DNA of 51,817 nucleotides from an uncultured Oscillospiraceae bacterium (lineage in GTDB: Bacteria > Bacillota > Clostridia > Oscillospirales > Oscillospiraceae): NCBI GenBank assembly GCA_947589545.1, contig CANQBA010000023.1, forward strand, positions 1 to 51,817, in the 5' to 3' direction. The position numbers and the translations under genes are program-made. Below the pieces are notes generated by a model. The model was given only the letters and a program-made list of their open reading frames with translations, was not told the origin of the DNA and did no database searches. This document shows positions 955 to 34,800 of this stretch, piece after piece. Within the stretch, counting starts at the first letter, position 1. Each line of letters starts with the position of its first letter.

Positions 955-1015
955 AGTGCCTCCTTCAAAACGGATGAGGGTGGCAGAGAGCGATCCCCGC
1001 CACCCTGGCATCCGC

Positions 1016-1180: not shown

Positions 1181-1193
1181 AGCTGCACCCTCC

Positions 1194-1742: not shown

Positions 1743-1744
1743 GG

Positions 1745-3215: not shown

Positions 3216-3408
3216 TGCCGCCACCTCCCTCCGGCACCTCCGTGATGGACACCGTTTCCACCGTGCCGCCGGGGACCAGAACCATCACGCTGCGGAGAGG
3301 ACCGAAGAGCCGGTTCAGCAGCTTCTCCCGGAACTTGAACTTCCGGCAGGCGATGATGCCGTCCGTGGGAGGGCGCTTGGAAACACTGATCTTGAGGTTG
3401 TGCTTCAC
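3208..3408 (-). CDS. Small protein, first gene of the replication operon, unknown function
   Basis: 66 residues, MKHNLKISVSKRPPTDGIIA..., with a GTG start at 3408 and a weak purine site GGATG upstream. It has a basic middle (CRKFKFREKLLNRLFG) and a beta-strand-like end (SVMVLVPGGTVETVSITEV). It overlaps the next gene by a few bases and is the first gene after the terminator at 3533-3566, so the operon promoter should lie in 3409-3530. No homologue is recognised with confidence. Confidence 0.6.
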   Translation of the reverse strand: MKHNLKISVSKRPPTDGIIACRKFKFREKLLNRLFGPLRSVMVLVPGGTVETVSITEVPEGGGGSE

Positions 3409-9628: not shown

Positions 9629-9832
9629 ATGCGTATAAGTTACAATAAGTTATGGAAAATGCTGATAGATAAGAATATGAACAAACATGATCTTGCTGAG
9701 AAAAGCGGTGTCAGTTCGGCCTCCATTGCCAAACTAAGCAAAGGTGCGAATATCACCACAGATGTCCTTCTAAAAATCTGTGAGGCAATGGACTGCACAT
9801 TAGAGGATATCATGGAAACGGTAAAGGATTGA
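9629..9832 (+). CDS. Cro/C1-type (Xre) transcriptional regulator
   Basis: 67 residues, a single helix-turn-helix domain (MNKHDLAEKSGVSSASIAKL, then LKICEAMDCTLEDIMETV). This compact form is common as the controller of restriction-modification and toxin operons. AGGAGG lies 6 nt before the ATG. It opens the glycosylase-restriction block, 37 nt after the ATPase gene, so it may be co-transcribed with ABC-3C. It is likely to delay endonuclease expression, inferred from position. Confidence 0.88.
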   Translation: MRISYNKLWKMLIDKNMNKHDLAEKSGVSSASIAKLSKGANITTDVLLKICEAMDCTLEDIMETVKD

Positions 9833-9849
9833 CAAAAGGAGGTGGTATC

Positions 9850-10500
9850 TTGCCAAATGTCGTAACTCTCAATATGGATCACCCCGCCGTTCAATACCTA
9901 TGCAAAAAAGATAAACGACTTGCAAAAGTCATCAGCATGGTCGGACCTATAACCTATGTTCCGCATGATGAAGGTATCTATTCCTTCTTAGTACATGAAA
10001 TCATCGAACAAATGCTATCTGTAAAAGCAGGGCAGAAAATATATCAAAGACTTGAAGATTTGTGCGATGGCAGTGTGACTCCCGAACGAGTTGACGCTCT
10101 TTCAGATGACGAGATACGTGGGACAGGAACATCATCTTCAAAGGTTAAATGTATTCGTGGCATCACCGAAGCTGTATTATGTGGAGATTTGGATTTCGAC
10201 AAAATGCATATGATGCCTGATGAAGAAGTCATGCAATACCTTACTAAGTTTCATGGCATAGGCAAATGGACTGCAAAAATGTTTTTAATTTTTGTCCTCG
10301 AACGTCCAGATGTTCTTCCTGTTGAGGATGGTGCCTTTTTACAAACATATCGCTGGGTATATAAAACGAACGATTGTAGCGAGAATTCTGTCTATAAAAA
10401 ATGTAAAAAATGGAAACCTTACTCATCTATTGCATCACGGTTTTTCTATAGGGCGTTAGATAAGGGTATGACAAAGAGCGAATTTCACCTATTCAAATAA
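9850..10500 (+). CDS. HhH-GPD DNA glycosylase (AlkA-like)
   Basis: 216 residues. The helix-hairpin-helix reads FHGIGKWTAKMFLIF (about 134-148), followed by the catalytic aspartate in LPVEDGAF (about 157-164). Together these are the signature of the AlkA/OGG-type glycosylases, which flip out and excise damaged or modified bases. The start is TTG at 9850 with GGAGG 7 nt upstream, better than the in-frame TTG at 9829. It is encoded between the regulator and the type IIS endonuclease, 10 nt before the latter. Its position suggests a role connected to base modification or restriction, but plain alkylation repair cannot be excluded. No Fe-S cluster cysteines are seen. Confidence 0.83.
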   Translation: MPNVVTLNMDHPAVQYLCKKDKRLAKVISMVGPITYVPHDEGIYSFLVHEIIEQMLSVKAGQKIYQRLEDLCDGSVTPERVDALSDDEIRGTGTSSSKVKCIRGITEAVLCGDLDFDKMHMMPDEEVMQYLTKFHGIGKWTAKMFLIFVLERPDVLPVEDGAFLQTYRWVYKTNDCSENSVYKKCKKWKPYSSIASRFFYRALDKGMTKSEFHLFK

Positions 10501-10510
10501 GGAGGATAAA

Positions 10511-12169
10511 ATGGCTACAAAAGGAAATAAGCGCACAAATTTAGAGGCTAACGAAGCCTTTCTTCAGTACGAGGAGGAAATTGTTAATCACCCCGCATAT
10601 GCCGGAATGCCAGACTTACGTCATGATGATGGGACTATCCAATGGGAAGCTCCATCAAACAGAGGTGCCGGAGTTTTTCAGTTTTCGCATGATAAACGCT
10701 ATCAATGGTGGGTAGAAAAGGCAGCTGAAATTGGAATAAGTACAGATGAAGATAAATGGATCAGCAAGGTTGCCAAAACTATACATCCTACCAAACTGCA
10801 TCCGTGTAAAGTTTGCGGTCGAGTTATGGATATTCGTTACTGCTACCTGTCATCAAACTTTATTAAAAGAGTCCAAAAACTCCCTTTTTATGATGGCGCA
10901 GTTGAGATGGACGAAATCACACATATTTTGGACTTCGTTGCAGCGTTCGTTGATACATACGCAGATGACGCTTTTAATGCTTTGCCGGGTTTACTAAAAT
11001 GCACTCAGGTAAAAGAAATCCCGAATATGCCTCACGAACTTTCCGCTTGGACCTCTTGGATTGAACAAAGCTACATTCCACAAGAGCCGAGTATGCTTGG
11101 CCCCGGAGCAATGTCAAATGCTCCTGATCGCCTTGACGGGTTTCATACATTTAATCGTTGTTGTCGTTCTAAGGCAGATAAGGGCCGTTCAAAGGAAAAT
11201 CTTGCATCTTATTCAACTGACAGGAGAGCCTTTGAAAACTGGAGTGATGGCAACTGGATTACGGCTAATAAATTGATGGGTTTTATCAATTCCAGCCCTG
11301 ACATGAAAAAAGAGCGCTGTGCAAACGAAGGAAGCGATGGACATCATCCGCGTCCGTGTAGTGCAGATCATATAGGGCCGATTTCTCTTGGCTTCTGTCA
11401 TAGACCTGAGTTTCAATTTCTATGTAAGCCCTGCAATAGCGCAAAAAATAACAGGATGTATTTTTCGGACGTTAGACATTTAATTGAAGTTGAAGAATCT
11501 GGAGAAACTGTTGCCACTTGGTATGCGAACCCCATATGGCAGAAATGTAAAGGAAGAGTTACCGACAAAGAATCTGCCTTAAGACTTAGTCGCGTGATGC
11601 GAGATAACCGCAATATCGCAATGATGCTCTTAGCCGACTTCATTAACAGGGATGAATACCTGTTTCTTTTCACGCTACTCAATTTGGAATATGCAGACTA
11701 CGATTATGAAATCATCCCTGGTTCAACAAGGATAAACAATCACATCGTGACTGTGGATTTTTCACAGAGGGAAAGCACATTGAGGTATGTAAATATCCAA
11801 AAAACAAGGAAGATTCGTGTTGCATTTTCTTCACTTTCCGAATACGCTAAGAAGGAAAATCGCAATGGATATACCTATACCAATTCACGGATAGAAACAC
11901 TTAAAAAGGAAGCATTCCGTATCCTTTCCAACATTTGCAGTATAGCTAAGAAGCAAAACGAAGCTCTTATAGCCGCTCTTTCCGATGAAGATCGAGTGGA
12001 TTCAGAACTTGAAACATTCTTATCCACGGTAGACTATACTGCACTAAAGCATATGAGAGAATTTATCGCTGTAAAGGAACTGCTCATACAGATTATGGAA
12101 TTAGTCGCTCAAGAACTATCCTCAAATTGGGACGCCCCTCGTTATTCAAGAGAAACTGCTGACGAATAA
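10511..12169 (+). CDS. Type IIS restriction endonuclease, Alw26I/Eco31I/Esp3I family (HNH)
   Basis: 552 residues. A zinc-binding part with HPCKVCGR (about 98-105), then an HNH-type nuclease core: PCSADHIGPISLGFCHRPEF (His in the ADH motif) followed by LCKPCNSAKNNRM (Asn and the second Cys pair). Family members recognise asymmetric GTCTC-like sites and cut a few bases away. AAGGAGG precedes the ATG. It is the last gene of the plus-strand operon, converging on the methylase gene across a bidirectional terminator. Its specificity is inferred from the family, with extra flanking bases unknown. Confidence 0.85.
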   Translation: MATKGNKRTNLEANEAFLQYEEEIVNHPAYAGMPDLRHDDGTIQWEAPSNRGAGVFQFSHDKRYQWWVEKAAEIGISTDEDKWISKVAKTIHPTKLHPCKVCGRVMDIRYCYLSSNFIKRVQKLPFYDGAVEMDEITHILDFVAAFVDTYADDAFNALPGLLKCTQVKEIPNMPHELSAWTSWIEQSYIPQEPSMLGPGAMSNAPDRLDGFHTFNRCCRSKADKGRSKENLASYSTDRRAFENWSDGNWITANKLMGFINSSPDMKKERCANEGSDGHHPRPCSADHIGPISLGFCHRPEFQFLCKPCNSAKNNRMYFSDVRHLIEVEESGETVATWYANPIWQKCKGRVTDKESALRLSRVMRDNRNIAMMLLADFINRDEYLFLFTLLNLEYADYDYEIIPGSTRINNHIVTVDFSQRESTLRYVNIQKTRKIRVAFSSLSEYAKKENRNGYTYTNSRIETLKKEAFRILSNICSIAKKQNEALIAALSDEDRVDSELETFLSTVDYTALKHMREFIAVKELLIQIMELVAQELSSNWDAPRYSRETADE

Positions 12170-12173
12170 AAAA

Positions 12174-12211
12174 CAGCCGACCATCTGTCAATTGCAGGTG
12201 GTCGGCTTATT
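12174..12211. terminator. Bidirectional terminator between endonuclease and methylase genes
   Basis: GCCGACCATCTG (12176-12187) pairs with CAGGTGGTCGGC (12195-12206) with one mismatch. It is flanked by AAAAAA on the left and TTATTTT on the right, so it can stop both converging transcripts. Confidence 0.85.
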
Positions 12212-15034
12212 TTAGTAGATGTAGCTGTCAAGATATTCGTCCGCAGTTATTTCTCCTCGCATAAATTTTTGATAAAGATTTGATGCAGGAAAACGATAAT
12301 TATATCCGCTTCCATCTTCTCCCGGATCGAGCGGTGGCAAATCGCCAATTGCGTCCTCGACACCAATGACAGGCGGGAGGAACGATAATTGACCGTCTTT
12401 GGGAACGCATGATATTTCATTCATACTAAAACCTTGCACAAAATCAGCGTTCCCACCAATGATTATTACACGATCTCTCCGTTGCGGAACGCCAAAGTTG
12501 GCTGCGCTAACCTGGTTTACTTTGATTTCTGCAACACATTCCTTCAACTCAGCTTTTATCATCTCAAAAAAATGTCCCTTATCTAAATTGAGAATTCCAC
12601 GAACATTCTCAAATACAAAGCCATCCGGTCTGATTGCCTTTACTATGCTGGCATAAGATTTAAATAGCCAGTTGCGCATATCTTCAGCACCTCGCCGTGT
12701 ATTTGCGGTAGAGAATCCTTGACAAGGTGGTCCTCCAAGAACAAATAGAGGAAGGTTTGGATTTGCGTTCTTTGCAGTTACTGCCGCATCTACGATTGCA
12801 TCATGTACCTCTTGGCTATTAATATCACCAACAATTGCTTCTCCGCCAAGATTTCGCTTGTGTGTTTCTACTGCGTAGTTATCGATATCATTCCCAATTA
12901 TCGGAATCCAACCAGCCCAAACGAAGCCTAAAGCAAGTCCTCCTGCGCCACAGAAAAGGTCAATAAACTGTCCCTTGAAAGGAATGCTTTTTGCAATCTG
13001 ATAGGCAAGTAGCGGTGGCACGGCGTTTCCAATCTGATTGTTTATCGCCCCAAGCGATCCAATAAACTCAAATGAATCTGGAAAGCTCTGAAAACGTGCT
13101 GCTTCTCTTTGTGATATAGTCCTGTCCTGGTCATAATGGATATTGCATCCATTCCCTGGACGGTTAAAATATGTGTTGATAGTATATGCAGGCATTTCCG
13201 GACGAAGTCTGCCATAATATGTAGACCGGCTGCCTTTCCCGGCTTTATAGCTTTCTCGGATTTGTGCAAGCCTTTGCGATGGCACACTCTCTGGGATGTT
13301 CTTCCAGTTTCCCCCTGGCGGAACACACCTTATTACTTGCATATCCAATTCACTCAATGAAGATGCATAGTGATTGAAAATCATGGTTTTCTTTTCCCCA
13401 TCCTGACTTTTTGCACGATACTGGCGAACAATATTTGCTCGTTTTTCATTATCCAACTTGAACGAATCTACAATAATCTCATATTCTTCAGGTGAGAGAT
13501 TGTATAGATGGGCGACCGCTAATTCAATTGCATCTTCAACATCTTGACCTGCCAATTGCTTGTCCACTAATTCTACGATGTCCATATCAACACACGGTCG
13601 AGGAACACGAATCTGCTTCACTATCCCTGCTGACACATGATTAGATACCAACATACTCCTTGCTTGATATTCAAATATCATTGAATTCATGATTGCAAGC
13701 AACATTTTGAGACTGGAAAGTGTGGCTTCTTCTCCATACACCACACCGAGAGAATTTCCACAAATGAATCCAGGCGGCAACAATGTAGCTTTGATCCGCC
13801 TTACTTGAGAATCGCGTGATACATCTCGCCACACGACCTTACTCGTGAATGAACTTGGCGGGGGAATTACCATCTCCTCATTCAAAAATAATTGATCATT
13901 TGTAAAGGAATACCTGTCTACCATATAACCTTTTGCAAATTCAATTTTACCAGTGTGTAACAGTTTTTCTTTTACTCTTGTTTCGTCTAATTCACGTGTG
14001 AAACTCAATCCTGTTTCTTTGCAAAAATCATCAGTCGAAGGAAGCCGTTCAAGATACATCATTATGGGGATAGCCTCAATTCCAGTTTTCAGCGGAACGC
14101 AAAAGCCCGTCCGCTTGATATATTCAAAAACAGCTTTTTCTATCTTTTTTTCTTTATATGTATCCTTATCGCTATAAATCCTAACGCTAAGGCTCTGATC
14201 AGTTTCTCCTCCCTTAACTACTAAGGTTATACTTGAAATATCTGCGCTACCATAGAGCTTTAATTCGGCAGGATAATAAGAAACATTTATGACCTTATAG
14301 TTTTCAAAAATCCAACTTCTCAATCTGCTTGAAACTTGATCATTAAGCAAAGAAGCTGGAGAAACAATGCCGCAGAAACCGCTTGATTTTATTAATCTAA
14401 GTGCGACCTCGGTTCCGCAACGTGCAAGATTTGTTCCCCATTTTCCAAATTTTGAAGAAGGCTGTGAAATCACAAATGCTTCCTTCATGTAAGAATCATA
14501 TTGTTCTATTGCGTTACGATATCCAGCCATAGCTTCTTCGCCATTACTCTTGCTAAAGATTTTCTGCGGTTTCAAAAGACTCCACGGAGGATTCGTAACA
14601 CAAATATCGTATTTGCCGCAAACAGAATCATATCCTACAAATGCATCTACCCGACGAGCATCAAGTTCATATTTTAATCCCGCAGATTCACAAAACTGTT
14701 CTATCTCACTTTTTGCTATATTCACAGCGTTCGCGTCAATGTCCCAGATTGAAATATACAACCGCTTAGGGGATAGTTTCCCCGACTTTTGTAATTCTGC
14801 AAGCAAAGAAACAATCAGCCTTCCATCGCCACAAAAAGGATCAATAATGCGTAATTCCGAAGCAAAGGTGTCGTACACATAACGCTGACTTAACATCCGC
14901 ATCATGCTTTCTGCTATATCATAATCGGTGTAAAATTTGCCGAGAAGTTTTTCATCTTCAAAATCAGACTGCGTAAATTCATCAACGAACTGATAATAGT
15001 CTGTACTTATTTCAAGTGGGGTTTTAATTGACAT
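12212..15034 (-). CDS. Fused m6A / circularly permuted m5C DNA methyltransferase of the type IIS system
   Basis: 940 residues. Residues 1-540 form an N6-adenine methylase of the Alw26I/Eco31I/Esp3I group: motif I IIDPFCGDGRL (63-73) and motif IV NPPW (148-151). Residues 552-940 form a cytosine-C5 methylase in permuted order: TRD end and motifs IX-X first (QREAARFQSFPDSF about 642-655, QIGNAVPP about 667-674), then motif I FIDLFCGAGGL (about 690-700), GGPPCQGFS with the catalytic Cys (about 771), ENVRG (about 809) and QRRDR (about 851), ending inside the TRD. One protein could thus protect both strands of an asymmetric site: adenine on the GAGAC strand, cytosine on the GTCTC strand. GGAGG precedes the ATG. 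Confidence 0.87.
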   Translation of the reverse strand: MSIKTPLEISTDYYQFVDEFTQSDFEDEKLLGKFYTDYDIAESMMRMLSQRYVYDTFASELRIIDPFCGDGRLIVSLLAELQKSGKLSPKRLYISIWDIDANAVNIAKSEIEQFCESAGLKYELDARRVDAFVGYDSVCGKYDICVTNPPWSLLKPQKIFSKSNGEEAMAGYRNAIEQYDSYMKEAFVISQPSSKFGKWGTNLARCGTEVALRLIKSSGFCGIVSPASLLNDQVSSRLRSWIFENYKVINVSYYPAELKLYGSADISSITLVVKGGETDQSLSVRIYSDKDTYKEKKIEKAVFEYIKRTGFCVPLKTGIEAIPIMMYLERLPSTDDFCKETGLSFTRELDETRVKEKLLHTGKIEFAKGYMVDRYSFTNDQLFLNEEMVIPPPSSFTSKVVWRDVSRDSQVRRIKATLLPPGFICGNSLGVVYGEEATLSSLKMLLAIMNSMIFEYQARSMLVSNHVSAGIVKQIRVPRPCVDMDIVELVDKQLAGQDVEDAIELAVAHLYNLSPEEYEIIVDSFKLDNEKRANIVRQYRAKSQDGEKKTMIFNHYASSLSELDMQVIRCVPPGGNWKNIPESVPSQRLAQIRESYKAGKGSRSTYYGRLRPEMPAYTINTYFNRPGNGCNIHYDQDRTISQREAARFQSFPDSFEFIGSLGAINNQIGNAVPPLLAYQIAKSIPFKGQFIDLFCGAGGLALGFVWAGWIPIIGNDIDNYAVETHKRNLGGEAIVGDINSQEVHDAIVDAAVTAKNANPNLPLFVLGGPPCQGFSTANTRRGAEDMRNWLFKSYASIVKAIRPDGFVFENVRGILNLDKGHFFEMIKAELKECVAEIKVNQVSAANFGVPQRRDRVIIIGGNADFVQGFSMNEISCVPKDGQLSFLPPVIGVEDAIGDLPPLDPGEDGSGYNYRFPASNLYQKFMRGEITADEYLDSYIY

Positions 15035-16410: not shown

Positions 16411-16495
16411 TGGTGGAGGAGGGTGGATTCGAACCGCCGAAGGCATCGCCAGCAGATTTACAGTCTGTCCCCTTTGGCCACTCGGGAACTCCTCC
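16411..16495 (-). tRNA. tRNA-Tyr (anticodon GTA)
   Basis: An 85-nt class II tRNA with encoded CCA. The acceptor arm starts GGAGGAGTTCCCGAGTGG and ends in CTCCTCCACCA; the anticodon loop is CTGTAAATC (GTA); a long variable arm follows, and the T loop is GGTTCGAATCC. It appears intact and lies 11 nt downstream of the tRNA-Thr fragment on the same strand, so an original tRNA-Thr/tRNA-Tyr cluster is implied. Confidence 0.96.
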
Positions 16496-16506
16496 GTATG
16501 CAATTT

Positions 16507-16551
16507 TGGAGCTGGTGGACGGATTCGAACCCCCGGCCTGCTGATTACAAA
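16507..16551 (-). other. 3' fragment of tRNA-Thr(TGT): probable attachment-site (att) core
   Basis: 45 nt matching the tRNA-Thr sequence from the anticodon loop (TTTGTAATCAGCAGG) through the T arm (GGGGGTTCGAATCC) to the CCA end (CACCAGCTCCA). The bases 5' of it (GGGGCTAG...) do not form a D arm or the 5' acceptor strand, so the gene is incomplete. Tyrosine-integrase elements usually recombine into tRNA 3' halves and leave exactly such a duplicate. The intact tRNA-Thr is not in this window and should lie at the other end of the element. Confidence 0.82.
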
Positions 16552-16666
16552 CTAGCCCCAGCATATAATTCTGAGCATTTCTAAGGCTTTTCAGCCCTTT
16601 TTGCTCCGAAATCAGCAGCTCGTTCATGCTGTCCCTTCCACTGTTTCCACCCGCGAATTTCGTCCA

Positions 16667-16686
16667 GTGGGTCAACTTGTGGGTCA
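16667..16686. repeat. Paired GTGGGTCA motifs 12 bp apart beside the att site
   Basis: GTGGGTCA at 16667-16674 and 16679-16686. Similar pairs occur at 31386-31404 and 45334-45352. They may be integrase arm-type sites. On the minus strand they could also be the tail of a deleted integrase gene (a short open frame reads DPQVDPLDEIRG). Confidence 0.45.
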
Positions 16687-16736
16687 GGCCGCTTTCCGCC
16701 CGGAAGGCGGCCTGAACGATTCGAATAATCGAAGAA

Positions 16737-17482
16737 TCAAGCAAGAAGGGTCTTCCAATCTACCGGGAAACCCATAGAAGTGATTTTCACGGAGGGGTAC
16801 TTTTCGATATACGATTCAAGCTCGTTCACGAAGCGCGTCCAGCGCCTGTCATGGAGGACTAGCTTGGAAACGCACAGGAGTACGCCATAGATCCTGTTAT
16901 TCCCGATGCCCATTTGTGTGTACTGCTTGTACAGCTTTGGGGTCTTGGCAAGTTTGGCATTGTAAAGCCGTCCATAAGGAGCGCAGAGATTTCGTACGTA
17001 AGCGATGCTTTCGATCCAACTCTCAAAATATGTATAGCCAACTCCGTATGTGCCGGCCACCGCCTTCTTGGCCTCGTTTTTCATGTTCTTGAAAAATTTT
17101 GACAGCGTACCAAAGCTGAAGAGCTCCATCAGCGCGTACATAGGAATTTTTCCATCCGCGTAATTTGTCTGAAAATTCCTGACGAACAGGGACTTGGCGT
17201 TGCGTTCAATTTCGTGGTTTATGTCCTCGATAAACTCTTTATGATAGCCGGCATCGGCAAAATTAGCGGGGGTTTCATATCCCAAACCGCCGTACTTGCA
17301 GGAGAAGTAATTTGCCAGCCTGCAACGCAGATTGACCTCAACGCGCTCGATGACCGTAAACAAAATATGTCATTCAAAATATTCTCTGCCATGCTCTCGT
17401 CGCTAATCGTAAGGCCAATGCTTTTGAGATTTTCCACCTGCTCCGCTACGGTCTTAGGCGGCTGATGCTCCTTGAGCTCCAT
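16737..17482 (-). pseudogene. Abi family (AbiD/F-type, Abi_2) abortive infection gene, decayed
   Basis: The N-terminus (MELKEHQPPKTVAEQVENLK..., from 17482) and the rest (FTVIERVEVNLRCRLANYF..., ELFSFGTLSKFFKNMKNEAK, to 16737) lie in different frames meeting near 17365. About 50 residues of the usual YYRLSGY-type segment are missing between them. The family's HEPN motif RNxxAHHGR reads RNLCAPYGR here, so both histidines are lost. Abi_2 proteins are HEPN RNases of phage-triggered abortive infection. Internal deletion, frameshift and lost catalytic residues together indicate a dead gene. The longest remaining frame is 208 codons from a TTG at 17363. Confidence 0.82.
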
Positions 17483-17629: not shown

Positions 17630-17658
17630 TTGTGCGAAGGGAAACCAGGACTTATAAT
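17630..17658 (+). promoter_or_regulatory. Promoter of the TOTE primase-helicase gene
   Basis: TTGTGC (17630-17635), 17 nt, TATAAT (17653-17658), about 34 nt before the ATG. It is divergent from the Abi promoter 44 nt away. Confidence 0.75.
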
Positions 17659-17691
17659 TATAAAAGCAATATGTGGATATTAGGTGATATT

Positions 17692-20589
17692 ATGGTGAAT
17701 ACGGAAATAATTGGCGGACGGGTTTACAGATTCGTGGAGTGTCTTGACGCGATCGACGGAAGCGGACAGTATGTGGTTTGTGCCGATTCCGCCGGTGTGC
17801 GGTATGTCTGTCCGGCGCAGGTGTGGCAGGCGAACGTCATTGCGGACACATCGACGGTCAACCGTAGCAGTTCATCCAAAGAGAAGATCAATCTCTTTCT
17901 CGACCTTTTTCGCGGGCGTGAGGACGTGTACGCAAGGCGTTGGTACAGTCCGAAGACAGGCAAGAGCGGCTATGCTCCCGTATGCCGGAACGAGTGGCAG
18001 GAGGGAATCTGCGATAAGAGAAAAAACAAATGTCCCGAATGTCCGAACCGGGAATTCGCGCCGCTGAGCGCCGAGGTCGTCCGTGCGCACCTTGTGGGGC
18101 GGGATGAACTCTGCCGGGATGTTGCGGCGATATATCCCATGCTGCCGGACGACACCACGCGACTCCTGGCCATGGATTTTGACGGGGAGAGCTGGAAGGC
18201 CGACGTCTCCGCCGTGAGAAAGGTCTGTGAGGGAATTGGCCTTACCCCCGCCATTGAGCGCTCCCGCTCCGGCGACGGGGCGCATATCTGGTTTTTCTTC
18301 TCGGAGCCCGTCAAGGCCGCGGACGCCCGGAGGCTGGGCACGTCCCTTTTGACAAGAGCCATGCAAGAGCGTCACGAGCTGTCCTTCGCCTCCTATGACA
18401 GGCTCTTTCCGGCCCAGGACTTTCTTCCCAAGGGCGGATTTGGAAACCTCATTGCCCTGCCGTTTCAGGGGCGGGCGCAACGGGATAGCAACGCGCTCTT
18501 TGTGGACGAGCGCTTTGAGCCGTATCCTGACCAGTGGGCGTTCCTCTCGTCCCTGCCAAGGCTGTCCTCCGAGAATCTGGAACAGCTTTTATCCGAATTG
18601 AAGGGCGAATCCGATGTGGGACCGCTCCTGGATGCCGAATCCGCCAGGCCCTGGCCCGAAAAGCGGACGCGACGGAAGCTGACAAGGGAGGACTTTCCCC
18701 TCTCTGCAAGGCTCATGCTGTCGAATTCTCTCTATATCGACAAAGCGGGCTTTACAAGCCCCGCCCTCAACGCCGTCAAGCGTCTGGCGGCCTTTCCAAA
18801 CCCGGAATTTCGGCAAAAGCAGGACATGCGCCTGCCCGTGAGGGGCGTGCCAAGAATCATCTCCTGCGCTGACGAGGATATGGACTTTCTCACGCTTCCA
18901 CGCGGTTGCGCCGAGGCTGTGGCCAAATTGCTTAACGAATACAATGTGCCCTACGCATTGGAGGATCGTCGCATTGAAGGCCGTCCCATCGACGCAACAT
19001 TTACCGGAACCCTTCGCCCCGAGCAGGAGCCGGCGGCTGAGGCCCTTTTGCGGGAGGACACCGGCGTGCTGTCCGCCGTCACCGCCTTTGGAAAAACTGT
19101 CATCGGCGCGTATCTTATCGGACAGCGCAAGGTCAACACCCTGATTCTAGTCAACTCCACCGCACTGCTCAGCCAGTGGCGGGAGGCGCTGGAGAAATTT
19201 CTGACGATAAACGAATCGCTCCCGGAGGAACCGAAAAAGCGCGGCAGAAAGAAAGTCCGCCGCCTGATCGGTCAGCTCGGCGGCGGGAAGGACACGCGGG
19301 GCGGCATCATCGACGTTGCCCTGATGCAGTCGCTGTTCGAAGGCGACGAGCGGGAGGTCAAGCCCTTCGTTAAGGACTACGGCATGGTCATCGCGGACGA
19401 ATGCCACCACATTGCCGCTTTTACCTTCGAAAAAGTCATGAAGGCGGTGCGGGCCAGATATGTCTACGGTCTTTCCGCCACGCCGGTCAGGAAGGACGGG
19501 CACCAGCCCATCATCTTCATGCAGTGCGGCCCGGTGCGGTACATCGTGGACGCCAAGAGTCAGGCGGAAAAACGCACGTTTTCCCATTTTGTTATTCCGC
19601 GCTTTACAAGGACGCGGCTGCCGACGATAAGCGGCATTCAGGACGCCTACGCGGGGATCGTGGAGAACGATGCCCGCAACGATTTCATCATCTCCGACGC
19701 GCTGTTGACGATTTCGGAGGGGCGCACTCCCATTTTGCTGACTGAGCGCAAGGAGCACGCCGCCGTTCTCGCCTCCCGGCTTCAGGGAAAGGTTCAGAAT
19801 GTCATCCTGCTCATCGGCAGCGCGGGGCAGAAGGAGAAGCGGGAAAAGCTGGCGGCGCTGCAAAATGTCCCGCAAAACGAGACGCTGGCCGTGGTCGCCA
19901 CAGGGCGGTACATCGGCGAGGGCTTTGACGCGCCGAGGCTTGACACCCTCCTCCTGACCATGCCGGTCTCCTGGAAGGGCACGCTGGCGCAATATGCCGG
20001 ACGCCTCCACCGGAGCTACGAGGGTAAACGGGAGGTGCGGATCTACGACTACGTGGACGCCTGCGTCCCCATGCTGGAGCGAATGTACCACCGGCGTCTG
20101 CGGGGCTACGCGGAGCTGGGGTATGAGGTGAAGCTGGGCGGGCACAATGACGCGCCCTGCGTCATTTATACAGGAACCGAATTTGCGGAACCCTTCATGG
20201 CCGATTTGTCAATCGCGGCCCGGGAAATCGTCATCTCCAGCCCCTACCTCCAGAAAAACCGCGTAAAATCCCTGCTGCCGCTCCTGACGGGCGTCCCCGC
20301 CACGGTCTACACCGCCCCGCCGGAGCGCTATAAGCCGGAGCAGCAAAGCTCTGTCGCCGCGGCGATCGATTTGCTGGAGGCTTCCGGCGTCACTGTCGTC
20401 CGCCGCCCGAATCTCACTCTGCGTCTCGCAATTGTAGATAAGTCCCTCGTTTGGTACGGCGACATAAACCCCCTGGCCTTCCCAGCCCGCGACGCCGGCG
20501 CCATCCGCTTCGACAGCGCCGACATTGCCGGAGAACTGCTGGACACTCTGGCTGGCACTGGGAAACAGCTTGGCATTGAAGAAGTATAG
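17692..20589 (+). CDS. TOTE-type archaeo-eukaryotic primase / SF2 helicase / PLD-like fusion
   Basis: 965 residues. Residues about 62-230 form the TOTE AEP domain: ARRWYSPKTGKSGYAP, a zinc-binding Cys set (VCRNEWQEGIC, KCPEC), the metal-binding DFD (about 162-164) and ERSRSGDGAHIW (about 189-200). A SF2 helicase follows, with AVTAFGKT (about 462-469), DECHH (about 569) and GLSATPVRKDG. The end (ISSPYLQKNRVKSLLPLL, VDKSLVWYGDINPL) resembles a phospholipase D-like domain whose HKD histidine is missing. TOTE proteins are predicted RNA/DNA conflict enzymes of mobile elements. ATG at 17692 has AGGTGA upstream, favoured over the GTG at 17632, which falls inside the promoter. It is monocistronic. 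Confidence 0.85.
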   Translation: MVNTEIIGGRVYRFVECLDAIDGSGQYVVCADSAGVRYVCPAQVWQANVIADTSTVNRSSSSKEKINLFLDLFRGREDVYARRWYSPKTGKSGYAPVCRNEWQEGICDKRKNKCPECPNREFAPLSAEVVRAHLVGRDELCRDVAAIYPMLPDDTTRLLAMDFDGESWKADVSAVRKVCEGIGLTPAIERSRSGDGAHIWFFFSEPVKAADARRLGTSLLTRAMQERHELSFASYDRLFPAQDFLPKGGFGNLIALPFQGRAQRDSNALFVDERFEPYPDQWAFLSSLPRLSSENLEQLLSELKGESDVGPLLDAESARPWPEKRTRRKLTREDFPLSARLMLSNSLYIDKAGFTSPALNAVKRLAAFPNPEFRQKQDMRLPVRGVPRIISCADEDMDFLTLPRGCAEAVAKLLNEYNVPYALEDRRIEGRPIDATFTGTLRPEQEPAAEALLREDTGVLSAVTAFGKTVIGAYLIGQRKVNTLILVNSTALLSQWREALEKFLTINESLPEEPKKRGRKKVRRLIGQLGGGKDTRGGIIDVALMQSLFEGDEREVKPFVKDYGMVIADECHHIAAFTFEKVMKAVRARYVYGLSATPVRKDGHQPIIFMQCGPVRYIVDAKSQAEKRTFSHFVIPRFTRTRLPTISGIQDAYAGIVENDARNDFIISDALLTISEGRTPILLTERKEHAAVLASRLQGKVQNVILLIGSAGQKEKREKLAALQNVPQNETLAVVATGRYIGEGFDAPRLDTLLLTMPVSWKGTLAQYAGRLHRSYEGKREVRIYDYVDACVPMLERMYHRRLRGYAELGYEVKLGGHNDAPCVIYTGTEFAEPFMADLSIAAREIVISSPYLQKNRVKSLLPLLTGVPATVYTAPPERYKPEQQSSVAAAIDLLEASGVTVVRRPNLTLRLAIVDKSLVWYGDINPLAFPARDAGAIRFDSADIAGELLDTLAGTGKQLGIEEV

Positions 20590-20711: not shown

Positions 20712-22250
20712 TCAGCTGTCATGCCCCATTAAGTTGAATAACCCCCTTACTGTGTCCGGATCCACTTTTTCCATTTTACTGATTTCATCCAAAGATTTTT
20801 CTCCATATGATAAGAGCTCTACAATCTTCAGGATTTTTCTAAATGTTATCTTTGTATAATGCGGGTTGTCTATCAGCTGCCGAGCAGTGGTAGCGTCAAG
20901 TTGTAAATATTTTGTGGGTGGCTTTGTTCTGCCGACGGCCTTCTCAGAATCGGTCAGATCCATGCGTGTTTGATCTTTCCTCTCGTATTTTCGCAAGTAT
21001 AACGTTTGTCCATGCAGAGTCCTTGATTTTGTAATGGTAACGACACCGGTCTTTCCGGTCAGGATCGTTTTGACATCGAGAATATCTATCTTGCCAATCG
21101 GCGAAGAAACCAGATTTCCCTCGATACTACGGCCGGTTTCAGTCAAGCGCATAGATGCCTCGCGCATATTGCCCGAGCAAAGTATCTCAACGATATTAAG
21201 GAGGCATGTATAATCCTGAACGTTTCTCCAGTATTCAGGTATCCAACTGATACCATTTATCATTCCAAGGAGGCCGCCTGTCATTGCCGCAATCGTATCT
21301 GTGTCCGTTCCTGTTGAGAATGCGGCAGTTTTAATTCCGAGAGCCGGATTGTTGGCATATTTGGACGCAAAATAGATTGCGCTAAGAGCTGCCACATCTC
21401 CCGCCCCACGCACGTTTGAATAACTTCCCAATTCTTCAAGCAACGCGGCATCATGACTTAGTAGTCCCTTTGAGAGGGACTGCGTTATCTTTGAAAGTCC
21501 CATATTGATGCTTTTTGCAGTGGAGGACCAAATCTCAGGGAACGAGTAAGCTTTGTTCGCGAGCGTCATCCAATCTTCCGGGAAAAAGCTTTCACGAAAA
21601 GCGCTCCAATCGTCTGTCCCGTCAGCCACCAACTGGACCAATTCCCCGTAAGCGAGCGTGTTTTTCTTGTTCAAGGCAAGCCAAAGTGCATATGCATAAC
21701 ATGATGCGCCAACGATCGCCCGCGGATGTCCGTGGGTAAGAATGCTGTCGGCGATCACATCTGCAATGAGACCGTATGAATTTTTATCATCCTTGTGCGC
21801 AATCACATGCGGCAACACTCGCATGGCGGCTCCATTGCCGCCGGCGTTAAAATATTCCTTTGAGATTTGGGACCGCCAGGGATATTTTTTCTCTTTATAA
21901 GCCTTGGCGGCGTTTTTTATTGCTTTTCCGCCTCCTCGCTCATATTGGAGCCAAAACGGTAGTTCCTTTTGGGAGAAAAAAGCCTGCCAATCGCCCGAAA
22001 TAATACTGCGCGCAACGGCCAGCATCAACTGAGTGTCGTCGCTATACTCACCGGCGTATATTTTTTCGGGATGGTTCCAGTATCTCCCACCTTCCCACCG
22101 GGTCCAATCCATAAATCCGTTTTTCTTCACGGATTGATTTGGCGCACTATTCCCAAATCCACCTTCGTTTGGCCAACCCAAGGCATCTCCGACGGCAAAA
22201 GCCACAATCGCCCCAGCACACTTTTCTGCAATTGACAATATGCCAGTCAT
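20712..22250 (-). CDS. ADP-ribosylglycohydrolase (ARH/DraG family) with extra C-terminal domain
   Basis: 512 residues. The ARH fold is marked by AFAVGDALGWPNE near residue 20, YSDDTQLMLAVAR near 70, GNGAAMRVLP, and the metal-binding GTDTDTIAAMTGGLLG near 310: the GDAxG / SDDT / TDTD set that holds two Mg ions and removes ADP-ribose. A C-terminal part of about 130 residues (from about 380) is not recognised. ATG at 22250 follows AAGGAG and begins 1 nt after the DarT stop. Known: DarT toxins are normally reversed by the DarG macrodomain; here an ARH enzyme holds the antitoxin position. Removal of ADP-ribose from DNA is therefore inferred. Confidence 0.85.
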   Translation of the reverse strand: MTGILSIAEKCAGAIVAFAVGDALGWPNEGGFGNSAPNQSVKKNGFMDWTRWEGGRYWNHPEKIYAGEYSDDTQLMLAVARSIISGDWQAFFSQKELPFWLQYERGGGKAIKNAAKAYKEKKYPWRSQISKEYFNAGGNGAAMRVLPHVIAHKDDKNSYGLIADVIADSILTHGHPRAIVGASCYAYALWLALNKKNTLAYGELVQLVADGTDDWSAFRESFFPEDWMTLANKAYSFPEIWSSTAKSINMGLSKITQSLSKGLLSHDAALLEELGSYSNVRGAGDVAALSAIYFASKYANNPALGIKTAAFSTGTDTDTIAAMTGGLLGMINGISWIPEYWRNVQDYTCLLNIVEILCSGNMREASMRLTETGRSIEGNLVSSPIGKIDILDVKTILTGKTGVVTITKSRTLHGQTLYLRKYERKDQTRMDLTDSEKAVGRTKPPTKYLQLDATTARQLIDNPHYTKITFRKILKIVELLSYGEKSLDEISKMEKVDPDTVRGLFNLMGHDS

Positions 22251-22251
22251 G

Positions 22252-22929
22252 TTATTGCTCCTTCCTGACCTCATACAACGTTTCAGAGGGGAGCTTCCCT
22301 CGGTGAACGAGAGGGCTCCAATTGGTACTAAAAAGATCCGGTGCTATAACTATTGGCACGTTTTCCATAGAATTCACACTTAATAATGCGTACAGATGAT
22401 CAGCTCTTTCCTTGTCATTTACTGCAAATCCGGTAAAAAAGCTGCGTGGAATACTGCCGCTGATAAGTATTTCAGCTTGATCATCCGTGGGGCAGCACGA
22501 AAGCAACTGGCTGTCGCGTCTCCGCCCCGCCGTGGTCACATCGGCATATAATTGATTAAGCATATTTATATCATCGAAGATGTATTGGCCGCAACCTTTC
22601 GCGGCATTACAGGGAGAAAAAGCAATCGTTCTCTTTTCCAGTATATCCAAATCGATGAAAATTACGACCCAATCTGAAAAGATGCGGTCTTGGTCTCTTT
22701 CCCGTACTTTTTTAAGGTACCATGTGTTTGGATATTGAACCGAACAACAGACGGAATCTATCCGTCCATCTAATCTGACAGGGTCGGTTTGCTCCAGAAT
22801 GTCACTGTTTATATTTTGACTGGCCAAAATACCGTCAGGAGAAGATAAGATATGCGTAAGGTGTACAAACTTTGTAAAATGACAAAGCCGTGTTACCCCG
22901 CGCGATATTAAAAAAGATTTCGCTTTCAT
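22252..22929 (-). CDS. DarT-like ADP-ribosyltransferase (DUF4433 relative)
   Basis: 225 residues matching the DarT ssDNA thymidine ADP-ribosyltransferase group in order: TRLCHFTKFVHLTHIL at about 13, DGRIDSVCCSVQYPNTWYL at about 54, FSDWVVIFIDLDIL, FSPCNAAKGCGQYI, and CCPTDDQAEILISGSIP, whose Glu is the likely catalytic acid. DarT attaches ADP-ribose from NAD to DNA bases and blocks replication, acting as a toxin or phage defence. The ATG overlaps the helicase stop as ATGA, and the ADP-ribosylglycohydrolase follows at once, so the three proteins are made together. The DNA target and base are not proven. Confidence 0.8.
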   Translation of the reverse strand: MKAKSFLISRGVTRLCHFTKFVHLTHILSSPDGILASQNINSDILEQTDPVRLDGRIDSVCCSVQYPNTWYLKKVRERDQDRIFSDWVVIFIDLDILEKRTIAFSPCNAAKGCGQYIFDDINMLNQLYADVTTAGRRRDSQLLSCCPTDDQAEILISGSIPRSFFTGFAVNDKERADHLYALLSVNSMENVPIVIAPDLFSTNWSPLVHRGKLPSETLYEVRKEQ

Positions 22930-24341
22930 GCAAACTCATCTCCATTAAAGTAGTCGCAAGAGGCCAATCCAGTCGGGAAGAGCGGCGACAGGCTTCCATG
23001 ATATGACATATATAAACCATATTTGGAACGCGTAGAAGCAACATACAAAAGCTTCATCTCACTCGCATATGCTTCATCTTCAGAGCGCGCATTAACAACC
23101 GCTTCGGGATCCGGAAAAATGCCCTCCGAAAGAAACGGGATAAAAACATTGTCATATTCAAGTCCCTTTGCGGAATGAAAGGTACTTAAAAAAATACCTT
23201 TCACGTTTTCCGTAAATTGACTGTCTTTGTCAATGGTAGAGCAGATGAGCCCTTTACTGCTGAGGAAGGAACGAATTGTCCCAACTGAGCCCCTGTTCCG
23301 GCAGATAACAATATTAGAAGCTTCCGAAGCGCTCTCCAATTGTGATGCCAGCCATGTTAGCTCTGACTTTTGATCAGGAAAACCAATCAACACAGGTTTG
23401 GGCCCTATGGCTGTATAAAACGAAGGTGTGATAATATCATCGTCACTTTCCCAATATCGGGTACTCATAAGGTCTTTAGCAAATGCAGTAACAGTCGAGG
23501 GATTACGATAATTTCTGTCAAACTTCCATATGCCGACAGCCTTAATTCCGGCATCCCTCCAAGACAACCGACTGCCATAAATTTGCTGTGCCACATCGCC
23601 AAAGAACGTAAACGAGCCGTTGTCGTCAACTGCGGCAGTCAACGCTTTCAACATCATCGGAGAAAAATCCTGACCCTCATCAACAATAATATGCTTGTAT
23701 CTCCTATCACGTTCGTCGGTTTGAAGGGTCTGATAGACATAGCACGCCAAATCATCCCAATCATAACAATACCCTTCATTTTGGCGAAGCTCAAGATAAT
23801 CCTTGTAGATTTTGAAGAACCAACGCCTGTTCTCTCGCTTTATGTTTGCCCCCTTGCGGCCAATGCGTTCAATGGAGCAATATTCATCCTCCCGTGTTAT
23901 TCCAAACTTTTCTAAAAAAGATATCTCGTCAACAAACACCGCCAGTGGGCGCTTAAATGTTGATTCATCGGGATATTCGGCTTTTGCCTTGTCCAAGGCC
24001 CGCTGGATCAGGCAACTTTTTATACCAGGATCCACAATTCCGTTACGTTGCGGCATTTTCCCGATGCTGTTTAAATACCCGCGGGCAAACTTGTGAAAAT
24101 GCTCAATCGTTATGTTCCGTGGATAATCGCCGGCGAGCATCTCCATGTAGTTTACGAGCGCAACATTAAAAGTAACCACAAGAACGCTGGGCTTGTCCGA
24201 AAGGCTGGCCAAGAGCTCCGCTCTTAATAGAGCCATTGTAGTTTTTCCACTTCCGGCGGTTCCCAACACCACATAATGACCGGTTGGAGGCAGCGCCAGT
24301 ACCTCTCGTTGTTTTCCTTTGGGCGTGATATTATCTAACAT
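22926..24341 (-). CDS. UvrD/Rep-like SF1 helicase, first gene of the DarT operon
   Basis: 471 residues. Motifs: VLGTAGSGKTT (Walker A, about 27-37), HIIVDEGQDFSP (motif II), FFGDVAQQIYGS (motif III), STFHSAKGLEYDNVFIPF (motif V) and LLYVASTRSK (motif VI). It is a compact UvrD-family helicase without a 2A/2B-linked nuclease domain. ATG at 24341 has AAGGAG upstream; the in-frame TTG at 24347 is less likely. It is coupled by ATGA to the DarT-like gene. Helicases in such operons may expose ssDNA to the transferase or sense replication intermediates; this is inference. Confidence 0.87.
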   Translation of the reverse strand: MLDNITPKGKQREVLALPPTGHYVVLGTAGSGKTTMALLRAELLASLSDKPSVLVVTFNVALVNYMEMLAGDYPRNITIEHFHKFARGYLNSIGKMPQRNGIVDPGIKSCLIQRALDKAKAEYPDESTFKRPLAVFVDEISFLEKFGITREDEYCSIERIGRKGANIKRENRRWFFKIYKDYLELRQNEGYCYDWDDLACYVYQTLQTDERDRRYKHIIVDEGQDFSPMMLKALTAAVDDNGSFTFFGDVAQQIYGSRLSWRDAGIKAVGIWKFDRNYRNPSTVTAFAKDLMSTRYWESDDDIITPSFYTAIGPKPVLIGFPDQKSELTWLASQLESASEASNIVICRNRGSVGTIRSFLSSKGLICSTIDKDSQFTENVKGIFLSTFHSAKGLEYDNVFIPFLSEGIFPDPEAVVNARSEDEAYASEMKLLYVASTRSKYGLYMSYHGSLSPLFPTGLASCDYFNGDEFA

Positions 24342-24418
24342 TCTCAACTCTCCTTAATAGCAACTTTACAGACGTTCATTTATTCACTACCGGAGCAGCT
24401 GACAAAACACTTTATATT

Positions 24419-24448
24419 ATTATAGCACAATGTTGTAATCGATTGCAA
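24419..24448 (-). promoter_or_regulatory. Promoter of the helicase-DarT-ARH operon
   Basis: On the minus strand, TTGCAA (24448-24443), 18 nt, TATAAT (24424-24419), about 80 nt before the helicase start. Confidence 0.8.
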
Positions 24449-31518: not shown

Positions 31519-31884
31519 TGGAATAAGTGGTTAAAAATCCTATAAAATTTTTGCTACGCAAGAACGGGTCTATCAAAAGCCGTATCATTTTGAATAATCT
31601 TGTAACAGTTTGCCGTGCTCGTTACATATATAAATAGGATCATTTAATTACTTTTCGATATTATAGCAAACCGCAACGTGAGTCAATTGCGATGTCTTGA
31701 GAAAAGAAATGTAAAAAAACTAAACGAAAGGGGACTTTGATAAAAAACATTCCGATATATCAAACTCAATGGAATTTGTAAAAAGGGGGGATTACTTGCC
31801 GATGTTTGGCTTTTGCTAAAGCTCGTTACATTATAATAAATATGTTTTTATAGCCGACACGATTTACAAAAGGGGAGGATAATG
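31519..31884. other. AT-rich leader of the SEFIR-STAND operon
   Basis: No long gene. TATAAT at 31832-31837 with a weak -35 may be the promoter. A five-codon frame (MFGFC then stop) at about 31803, behind AAAGGGGGG, could be a leader peptide or chance. Confidence 0.4.
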
Positions 31885-34800
31885 ATGAAAGAAAAAAGAA
31901 ATTTACTTGTTTTATATTCGTGGGAGAAAAACAAAAAAAGTGCAACGGAATGGGTAATGGCACTTTGCACAGAATTTGAAAAATATGAATCAGTTACTGC
32001 GTCGTGCGATATGCTTTGGCGCCCTCAAAGCAATTTAGAAGAGGGCATTTCAAAAAAGATAGCCGAAGCTGATAATATATTGGTTGTTGTAACAAACGAC
32101 TATAATAAGAAAATCAACTCAAGAAGTGGTTTTGTTTCATTTGAAGAGTCAATTTATTCAAAGCTAATCAGAGAAACATCGGCTACCAATAAAATACTGT
32201 TTTTGTTAAAAGAAAATGTAGCGCTCCCCAAGGGATGGGAAGGCTACATGAAGATTGACGTTTCTCCGTTTTCTGTAGAAAAATATTATGAATATTCAGT
32301 TGAGCAACGACAGGGGATTATTGATGACATAATAGGATTCTGCTTTGATATTCCGCCATATGAAATTGTAATCTCTGGTAATAGAAGAGAATTGCCAAAA
32401 TCCCAAAAAGTAAAGTCTTTTCAGGAGCTGTTCAGCGAAGATATTCAGAATAATGATTGGAAGCAAGATATAGAGATTCCATTTGAGGAACAAGAAAAAA
32501 GATTGGTTGATTATATTAAGCTAAATGCTACACAGTCGAGTTTTGCGGACTTATATATACGTTCTGGGTTATCGGCTGATTTAAATCTGAACGGCAGAAT
32601 AACTCCTCAGCTATTTGATCAATATTTTCTTGTGAAAAGATCTGATAGAGAAGAGAACCACTACAACGCAACCATAGACGAACTTTTTAATTCCACCAGT
32701 TATAATTGCCTCTGCCTTCAATCCGATGGGGGAAGCGGCAAGAGTACATTTATTCAAACAATGTGTTTGCGTAGGAGACAGAGTGAACAGGAATATTATA
32801 CAAACATCCTTCTGGATCTTTCAAACCTTTCGGAATACCCGGAGGCAATGAGCAAAAAAGAAGATTTGCTATTTCAACGATTAAAAAAGGAATATAGTCG
32901 GATGTCTAAAAGGACTGGATCATATTACGATGTATGGAGGAAAAGATTTACAGAACGAGTTGAGAAACTAAATGAGATATCATTTGTTGATCAGAGATTA
33001 CCATCAACAAATGAAATTCAGGAAAAATTGAAGGAAGCACTTCTCAGCACTGTGCCTGAGGAGATTGATAATTGGTATTTTGGATATACCAATAGAATAA
33101 CTCAAGCGGTAAATCCCAATAGCAGAGACATGTTTTTTATTTTGATGATCGTCTATTTAATGATTCTTGACTGTAAACCCGCTCTAAATAAACCCGAAAG
33201 GTTTATTTTTGTGTTTGACAACATTGAGACGTACGACAACGAAAGAAATGCAAAAAGAATCAGTAGTTATGTAGAAACAGGCCATAGATATTTGCGAAAC
33301 ATTTTTACCGAGCTTGGTGTACGCGATAATTTCTTTACAAAATTTACTTTCGTAATCGTTTTGCGGACATCAACACTTATTCCGTTCGGAAACCTTCAGG
33401 CAGACCTGTGGTCAGGAGTGAGATTTGTCATGCACCTGAAATATTTTGATTTTACGGAAGAAGCGCTTCTTAAAAAACTCTATTTTCTTAAGAAAATAGA
33501 AAATTATACTGACATTTTACTCTATCAAAGGTTATACGCAATTATTTCATTTATGCTTCCCACTCAAATTATAGAAGAGTATTTACAAACGGGAATATAT
33601 AACAACTCTAAACGCAAGTATTATACTTCTCAAAGGTTGCTCCCATTGTTTAACAATAACTATAGAAAGACTATGCAAAACCTATACGATTCAATAATGA
33701 ATAATAGTAACAAGGGCATTTATCACATGATAATAGAATTGCGTAATTTGAATGGAGCGGAATATGATTATTACGTAAACGGAATCCGCATGGCCATTAT
33801 AAGAGAACTGTTTAACCGCCTAAATATACATAATTATTTTGATAAAATAGGCTTCCACAATCTAACAGGTAATGAAAAGAATAGTCTGACACGGTTAATA
33901 CTTGGATATATGTATTGGGACGAGGTTAAACATTACGCTCAAGGTTATAATAATCCTTACGTCGGTGTGGAACTAAGTAAAATATCAAAAGTGTTTAATT
34001 ACTTTTGTAATTCAGATGAATTTGTTAGAACTCTTTATGATTTAAGTATCTATTCAAACAGAAACAGTAATAAGGGCGCAGCGTTAAACGAATGGGGGCA
34101 TTTAATAGTCTTTGATAACATTAATATTGATTTAACAGAGCAACAGTTTGAAACAGTGGTAAGGAAATATTTGGAGTACAAAGAGGTAAATATCATAATT
34201 GAAGGAGTACAGATTAACTTAAACAGGATTTATGTCCGCCTTTCGGACGCGGGGATGTGTTTTACACAGTTTTACATAAGAAGTTACGAATTTTTAATGT
34301 CGCGTAGTGATGTTCCGGCTTTATCTCCAGGACTATTCCTGAGTAAGAGTCAAACTGCAACCGAAAACGATATAGACAAAGTTTATTTTATTATTACTAA
34401 CTGTATTCATAAGCTTATCGACGGATGTGAAGGGGTATGCGTATTTTATCACAAAGAAAAAAGTGAATGTTCGTACTATAAAAAAGCAAGCAAAAAGGCA
34501 AATCTTAATCTTTTGTCCTGTGCGTTGTTTATTCGCTGTCAAGAATGCTTCGATATGATCCGAGAGGCAATTGACTATATTGATCGGTTCAGAATTATTT
34601 ACTTCAAAAGGCACAATGATTATAACTTTAACAAAACGCTACTCGGCATAATAAATAAATATTATAAACTATATGGAGATGTTATGCAAACTCTTGAGTC
34701 GCATGATCATACTGAGGGACTTGACGAATTTATGCAAAAGTGGACTTTCCCTGCGAATATGCCAATTATTAATGAAATAAAGAAAGGAATACAACCATCT

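Follow-up and report, generated by a model that had tools for sequence, protein, structure and literature searches.

A conserved three-gene operon of a UvrD-like helicase, a DarT1-like ADP-ribosyltransferase and an ARH-family hydrolase: a possible DarTG-like defence system

The DNA considered here, called the window throughout, is a stretch of 51,817 nucleotides (positions 1 to 51,817 of contig CANQBA010000023.1, assembly GCA_947589545.1) from an uncultured Oscillospiraceae bacterium, and the system in question is a trio of coupled genes on its minus strand (20712-24338), in which a helicase is followed by a DarT-family ADP-ribosyltransferase (ART) and then by an ADP-ribosylhydrolase (ARH). 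The parts of the operon are as follows.

24419..24448, minus strand: candidate sigma-70-like promoter, TTGCAA-18-TATAAT with TG before the -10 element (10/12 consensus match)
22926..24338, minus strand: UvrD/GajB-like superfamily 1 (SF1) helicase, 470 amino acids, first gene
22252..22929, minus strand: DarT1-like ADP-ribosyltransferase, 225 amino acids, second gene
20712..22250, minus strand: ARH/DraG-type ADP-ribosylhydrolase with a C-terminal extension, 512 amino acids, third gene
21234..22214, minus strand: ARH catalytic domain, residues about 13-339 (Pfam match 13-339), with E29, S70 D71 D72 T73 and D316 D318 T319
20979..21122, minus strand: beta module of the ARH extension, residues about 377-424 (strands 380-424 in the model), with GQTLYLRK
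20712..20903, minus strand: variable helical ARH tail, residues about 450-512 (four helices in models; the tail-only model is weak)

The open reading frame coordinates bear out the coupling described in the initial annotation, which had been made from the sequence alone: the stop of the helicase gene and the ATG of darT overlap in the sequence ATGA, and the ARH ATG follows the darT stop after a gap of 1 nt. The helicase ATG lies at 24338, preceded by AAGGAGAG, and a TTG is found in frame with the helicase at 24347. Every motif named in that annotation (GSGKTT, DEGQD, PTDDQAEIL, SDDT and TDTDT) is present in the proteins, all three families are placed above their cut-offs by Pfam, and the helicase stands at the head of the operon, as it does in relatives. 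The single shared promoter is plausible, given the one sigma-70-like site listed above, but this site should be regarded as a candidate only, since the upstream region holds 8 such sites against 7.0 +/- 2.6 in shuffles, which is chance level.

The initial annotation had made its proposal depend on conservation of the gene order and had suggested a search for co-occurring DarT, ARH and SF1 helicase genes across genomes. Such a search reveals that the trio recurs in diverse bacteria: 16 distinct operons from Bacillota, Alphaproteobacteria, Actinomycetota, a Salmonella plasmid and two IMG/VR contigs have helicase, DarT and ARH in that order. This count leaves out a 98-99% copy of the window (L002), another Cereibacter plasmid whose annotation shows the trio too (H80), and the copies in E. 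coli. Scanning one genome per species with DarT gave five loci, none of which lacked any gene of the trio: two are from Oscillospiraceae, one of them the near-copy of the window, two from Paenibacillus and one from a Caulobacterales bacterium. Both loci found by the DarT scan of IMG/VR were full trios, and the helicase and ARH scans of that collection returned the same two contigs together with one carrying ARH only. Among plasmids, DarT matched 16 records, and the seven inspected comprised three full trios (Shinella, Streptomyces and Rhodococcus), a Nostoc variant and three DarTs linked to NADAR. ARH matched 11 plasmid records (four already inspected, three more inspected and four left out), and it was this search that brought up another, divergent group, with members in Streptomyces tsukubensis, on a Salmonella plasmid and in Cereibacter. 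Helicase matches were found in 102 plasmid records, and the five inspected beyond those with the trio had no DarT or ARH among their annotated features. A megablast of the window operon against plasmids found no match, nor did the window DarT in 50,697 phage records or the ARH of the divergent group in phage records.

The trio is rare and patchy among the sampled genomes. DarT matched 3 of 197 genomes of the Paenibacillus family sample, all three full trios including that of the centre genome. In the sample of the order to which the window belongs it matched 3 of 295 genomes, two of which, the window's and one other, have the trio; for the phylum the figure is 3 of 398, with the trio in the window only, and for Pseudomonadota 6 of 398, with the trio in the centre genome only. 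Of 5426 complete E. coli genomes, 21 carry the trio of the Salmonella plasmid, at 99% identity or above and always on the chromosome, and a more sensitive search with the DarT of that plasmid again gave 21. In public annotation the trio helicase is called a '3'-5' exonuclease' at two loci (L016, 4613-5956; L047, 15001-16398), a name that hides the trio from searches by name.

Across the 16 operons the protein lengths are steady (helicase 462-476, DarT 221-242 and ARH 512-600 residues), and pairwise distances are strongly correlated between helicase and DarT (0.934), helicase and ARH (0.938) and DarT and ARH (0.924), with none of 5000 permutations reaching as high for any of the three protein pairs; inside the main clade the correlations are 0.89-0.95. 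The three genes thus form a real, conserved and mobile system whose neighbourhood is not due to chance. The reading that we favour, at a probability of roughly 60%, is that of a mobile three-gene toxin-antitoxin defence resembling DarTG, in which DarT would modify DNA, ARH would reverse the modification, and the helicase would present single-stranded DNA or trigger the toxin. It could be argued instead that the operon is no more than a DarT-type addiction module whose antitoxin has been exchanged and that the helicase is a hitch-hiker without shared function, given that toxin-antitoxin modules collect in islands near unrelated defence genes and that the window is such an island. This is highly improbable, however, because each of the 17 distinct ARH-linked DarTs (14 from DarT searches and three, L035-L037, from the ARH search), drawn from several phyla, is immediately preceded by a helicase gene (of UvrD type in 16 cases, of AAA_11/AAA_12 type in Nostoc), with overlapping or abutting genes and correlated divergence, and because a different helicase type occupies the same place in Nostoc.

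The DarT protein itself matches Pfam PF14487 (5.8e-22; 78.8 bits against a cut-off of 22.5), and its closest solved relative is the guanine-specific E. coli C7 DarT1 (8baq; 5.1e-16 by phmmer, 7.8e-37 by profile), a chain that the DarT of the Salmonella plasmid matches at E 0.12 only. A tree of 36 DarT domains separates the macrodomain-linked rows from the others (support 98/92), leaving the ARH-linked and NADAR-linked rows together; the window's group of 13 ARH-linked rows (clade 1; 99/100) and the E. coli-type group of three (clade 2; Salmonella/E. coli, Cereibacter and S. tsukubensis; 100/100) are each well supported. NADAR labels rest on Pfam in 8 of 10 rows (L008, L009, L018, L019, L020, L041, L042 and L070) and on visible similarity in L043 and L044, and macrodomain labels on Pfam in 3 of 9 (L054, L063 and L064) and on visible similarity in the other six. 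The Pfam DarT model matched 19 of 299 Pseudomonadota genomes at 21 places, of which nine macrodomain-linked loci (L054, L056, L057, L058 and L060-L064) and one NADAR-linked locus (L070) entered the tree; not used were L055, L059, L065, L072, L073 and L074, and L066-L069 and L071 duplicate loci that were present from other searches. The weak DarT matches L029/L045 and L032/L046 were also left out, L046 having a macrodomain-like neighbour by eye. At L060/L074 (G728:C49) two neighbouring DarT-family matches on the same strand are followed by a macrodomain-like gene.

Residues were compared with the DarT1 active site as described in passages of PMC11543638, the 8baq chain numbering being, as counted on the alignment, that of the paper plus 1. 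The window DarT keeps the DarT1 residues H17, F18, D49, R52, D54, S63, N108 (=N104), Q151 (=Q150) and E153 (=E152), so that the ART glutamate (E153) and the NAD-binding H17 and R52 are present; the equivalents of R52, D54, N104 and E152 are kept, and those of M71, F72 and Y75 are changed. It has serine at the position of the DarT2 tyrosine Y71 (S63 of DarT1), as in the DarT1 lineage, and this position is Ser/Thr in all 17 ARH-linked rows and Tyr in all 9 macrodomain-linked ones. The lineage and these residues place the window DarT on the DarT1 side (guanine, NADAR-linked) and not on that of DarT2 (thymine, macrodomain-linked); guanine is most likely its target base, a prediction that is less sure for the E. 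coli-type group.

The third protein is assigned to ADP_ribosyl_GH (PF03747; 5.4e-42, 144.9 bits against a cut-off of 26.2), keeps both metal-binding motifs, SDDT and DTDT, and has metal-site residues that are identical in 16/16 operons, except that T319 is Ser in L036. Its structure model (built from 8 sequences; mean predicted local distance difference test score 82.3) retrieves ARH3 in the top rows of a Foldseek search, with 6dre, 8za7 and DraG (3o5t) among the first 50. The C-terminal domain of 130 residues noted in the initial annotation proves to be about 165 residues beyond the ARH domain, in two parts; the last 166 residues of the window protein have no Pfam match and nothing better than E 0.6 among PDB sequences, and no Pfam family scores above cut-off in the tail of the window protein, of L004 or of the E. 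coli-type group. In the beta module, GQT is the same in all 8 rows of one alignment, with EQT, GQQ and GQS in some of the 16 proteins. A glyoxalase/VOC domain replaces the tail in four operons, with helicase, DarT and ARH core kept, and falls below cut-off in L016:

L006, 9737-10459: glyoxalase/VOC tail
L034, 7739-8440: glyoxalase/VOC tail
L015, 7761-8414: glyoxalase/VOC tail
L017, 5699-6421: glyoxalase/VOC tail

A fold modelled from the tail alone (predicted TM-score 0.40) gave NUDT5 as its best Foldseek match, which at E 0.038 over 48 columns is too weak to use. The IMG/VR contig of L034 carries, besides its trio, a second, short ARH gene (L052, 11903-12847; 314 amino acids).

The ARH is probably the antitoxin of DarT, since it sits in the place of NADAR or DarG, and there is precedent in the solved pairs 6dre and 8za7, where proteins of ARH fold give immunity to ART toxins. 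The initial annotation was right that an ARH stands in place of the usual DarT partner but took that partner to be the DarG macrodomain; given the DarT1 lineage of the transferase, the partner replaced would be NADAR. The adjacent gene has no NADAR match, matching PF03747 instead, and none of the three window proteins has a macrodomain match in Pfam. A further locus, L041 (genome G888; 525-3334), has a helicase preceding DarT together with a convergent DarT1-type NADAR (PF22397, 1.6e-89), and its helicase scores 261 bits on the profile of the window clade, against 143-174 for the E. coli-type helicases. L041 can be read as a hybrid of DarTG1 and the trio, and since NADAR occurs there with helicase and DarT, the ARH looks like a substitute for NADAR; the two appear to be alternatives beside helicase and DarT, with one NADAR example. 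Such a helicase was found beside none of 9 macrodomain-linked and 1 of 10 NADAR-linked DarTs, with flanks often of only 1.5 kb; NADAR-linked L009 has a weak helicase match downstream (E 3.7e-5).

Arginine-linked ADP-ribose is held by an N-linked bond, like the bond to guanine N2. It is therefore conceivable that an ARH could cleave guanine-linked ADP-ribose, as ARH1 cleaves the arginine-linked form (passages of PMC8883491). The same passages describe ARH enzymes as acting mainly on protein (arginine and serine) ADP-ribose, and ARH3 on phosphate-linked ADP-ribose on DNA, the only ARH activity on DNA seen there. In passages of PMC7003065, DarG acts against DarT in two ways, with the macrodomain and by binding it with the C-terminal domain, and it is a reasonable guess by analogy that the ARH extension holds the toxin.

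These substrate preferences would fit another explanation, namely that the ART-ARH pair acts on protein or RNA, as in Tre1/Tri1 or DraT/DraG, with the helicase as its protein target or as an independent effector. Indeed, ART-ARH toxin-immunity pairs exist, and the solved ones retrieved by structure matches (6dre and 8za7) contain ARH-fold immunity proteins; moreover, the guanine contacts K74/Y75 of DarT1 are not kept. Nevertheless, a protein or RNA target is quite unlikely here, considering that the ART is a DarT both by Pfam and by best solved match, that it groups with NADAR-linked DarT1, and that helicase and DarT occur with a DarT1-type NADAR in L041.

The helicase, which matches UvrD-helicase (1.5e-21) and UvrD_C (6e-21) in Pfam, has GajB of Gabija as its top PADLOC match (8.8e-32), and the motif residues checked are kept in 16/16 operons with only Ser/Thr swaps within Walker A (L016 and L017). 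In the helicase tree clade 1 forms one group (100/100) and clade 2 another (100/100). The idea that all trios share one helicase family was dropped, as the clades are joined neither by the tree nor by profile scores and L041 is unplaced. The Nostoc variant (L021, 1-8477) combines its AAA_11/AAA_12 helicase with a DarT bearing a 340-residue N-terminal extension, an ARH and BREX pglZ. If such associations arose more than once, the helicase would be needed rather than accidentally inherited. It may open DNA for the transferase, may release the toxin on sensing DNA, or may help with repair.

The last of these roles corresponds to a distinct proposal, in which the helicase belongs to the reversal arm as a second antitoxin rather than a trigger, unwinding or clearing ADP-ribosylated DNA to let ARH and the excision-repair machinery of the host take out the lesion. 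Helicases of UvrD type work in excision repair. E. coli clears DarT2 lesions by nucleotide excision repair and by RecF recombination (passages of PMC7003065), and the constant upstream helicase of the 17 ARH-linked DarTs would suit such a role. Set against it are the DarTG1 and DarTG2 loci examined, most of which manage without a helicase (the 1 of 10 and 0 of 9 given above, within the same short flanks), and the fact that the closest PADLOC model, GajB, is part of a nuclease defence system; a place in the reversal arm is thus unlikely.

Several observations weigh against a single DarTG-like system acting on guanine in DNA. The ARH-linked rows do not form one clade on the DarT tree (three label changes), though they may have had one origin, and the helicase tree does not unite the two clades to the exclusion of other UvrD helicases; on the window helicase profile the clade-2 helicases score 143-174 bits, in the range of other plasmid UvrD helicases (135-192). 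At the active site, M71 of DarT1 is Tyr/Phe in clade 1 (NADAR-linked L008 also has Tyr there), the guanine-contacting K74/Y75 are not conserved, and clade 2 varies at D49, R52 and D54; the changes at M71 and K74/Y75 leave base specificity uncertain. As for the hydrolase, ARH immunity proteins in known ART-ARH pairs counter protein-modifying toxins, and no ARH-family enzyme acting on an ADP-ribosylated DNA base was found described in the portions of the open-access literature covered.

With these reservations, the DarTG-like defence that we favour could operate in three steps. Judging by lineage and residues, the DarT1-like toxin would move ADP-ribose from NAD+ to a base of single-stranded DNA, most likely to guanine N2, and replication would stall. 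In host DNA the ARH domain would then break the bond between ADP-ribose and guanine, the role played by NADAR for DarT1 and by DarG for DarT2, while the C-terminal extension of the ARH protein may also hold the toxin in the manner of the DarG C-terminal domain. In the third step, the weakest of the three, the UvrD-like helicase would engage invading or replicating phage DNA and either open a single-stranded substrate for DarT or, on binding DNA, free DarT from ARH, so that modification would fall on phage DNA. A more far-reaching version is that the trio constitutes a third kind of DarTG, with the first ARH-family DNA-base de-ADP-ribosylase as antitoxin to a helicase-directed DarT1-like toxin; we put this forward tentatively, at a little under even odds. 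The design would then be Gabija-like with reversible base ADP-ribosylation as effector instead of cutting, and the unrelated helicase types would mean that DNA opening is a required step.

Comparison with known systems helps to place the trio. With DarTG1 (DarT1 and NADAR) it shares a transferase on the DarT1 side with most of the DarT1 active-site pattern, a toxin gene preceding the hydrolase gene, and a setting near defence genes such as BREX, in which DarTG1 pairs are also found; it differs in that its hydrolase is an ARH (PF03747) of unrelated fold with a C-terminal extension and that a helicase leads the operon. The resemblance to DarTG2 (DarT2 and DarG macrodomain) lies in an enzyme toxin with a two-part antitoxin, a hydrolase and an extra C-terminal region, whereas the trio has no macrodomain and includes a helicase, and its transferase falls on the other side of the supported branch (98/92) and has Ser at the [H-Y-E] tyrosine. 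Like the ART-ARH pairs (Tre1/Tri1, 6dre; the Listeria Lmo0067 pair, 8za7; DraT/DraG), the trio sets an ARH-fold enzyme, matched in fold by the model, beside an ART, but its ART is a DarT-family enzyme and its operon includes a helicase; to our knowledge, the known ART-ARH pairs have none. Further ART-ARG pairs have been predicted in phages (passages of PMC9503650). In Gabija (GajA nuclease and GajB UvrD-like helicase), too, a short UvrD-like helicase is coupled to a DNA-attacking effector, while the trio effector is an ADP-ribosyltransferase with its own hydrolase and the operon has no GajA-like gene.

The suggestion in the initial annotation that this combination may be undescribed still holds, as no DarT-ARH-helicase operon was found in the open-access literature covered (subscription papers and preprints lie outside this scope, and the PADLOC release, 2.0.0, is of 2023); the trio may have been described elsewhere. 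Three apparent leads were discarded: the supposed literature name 'DarTG3' is DarTG with reference number 37 printed after it, the DarT match in PMC12928451 is an author name, and the segment of SGI1-related elements given in passages of PMC9035990, where two DUF4433 proteins and a macrodomain protein accompany a helicase, is not the trio, since it carries a macrodomain.

If the proposed reading is true, macrodomain, NADAR and ARH would be three unrelated folds that have each been taken up to reverse DNA ADP-ribosylation of the DarT type, and a DNA base would join the substrates of the ARH family. How phage infection upsets the balance of DarT and DarG is called unknown in passages of PMC11481870, and a dedicated helicase would provide a way into the question of what releases DarT toxins or directs them to phage DNA. 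As the trio occurs naturally in E. coli, the system can be tested directly in laboratory strains with laboratory phages.

The neighbourhoods of the trios inspected are often mobile or defence regions. The Nostoc variant adjoins its BREX gene, the Rhodococcus trio lies beside multiubiquitin, ThiF and Abi genes, that of S. tsukubensis beside TnsA-like and DDE-transposase genes, and L004 has Tn7-type transposition genes by eye; in the two E. coli copies inspected, of the 21, an integrase sits at ychF and the surrounding region contains RADAR rdrB. No defence gene was recognised by eye around the Shinella and Caulobacterales trios. By Pfam and PADLOC the window itself is a defence island with Lamassu, Alw26I-type restriction-modification, AbiD, TOTE and bSEFIR, the relevant features being these.

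3598-4593: Panacea-domain antitoxin-like protein (PF13274; weak MqsA match)
6367-9591: Lamassu-type pair (PADLOC; LmuA 2e-58, LmuB 1.2e-218)
9829-15034: Alw26I-type restriction enzyme region (PF09665, 2.1e-173)
16411-17363: AbiD-like protein beside a tRNA-Tyr gene
17632-20589, opposite strand to the trio and adjoining it: TOTE primase joined to a DEAD/DEAH helicase
31882-34956, on the other side of the trio: bSEFIR-like protein of 1024 residues

The Alw26I-type enzyme is preceded by an HhH-GPD base-excision protein, and the other strand of that region encodes a fused double methyltransferase with N6- and C5- matches.

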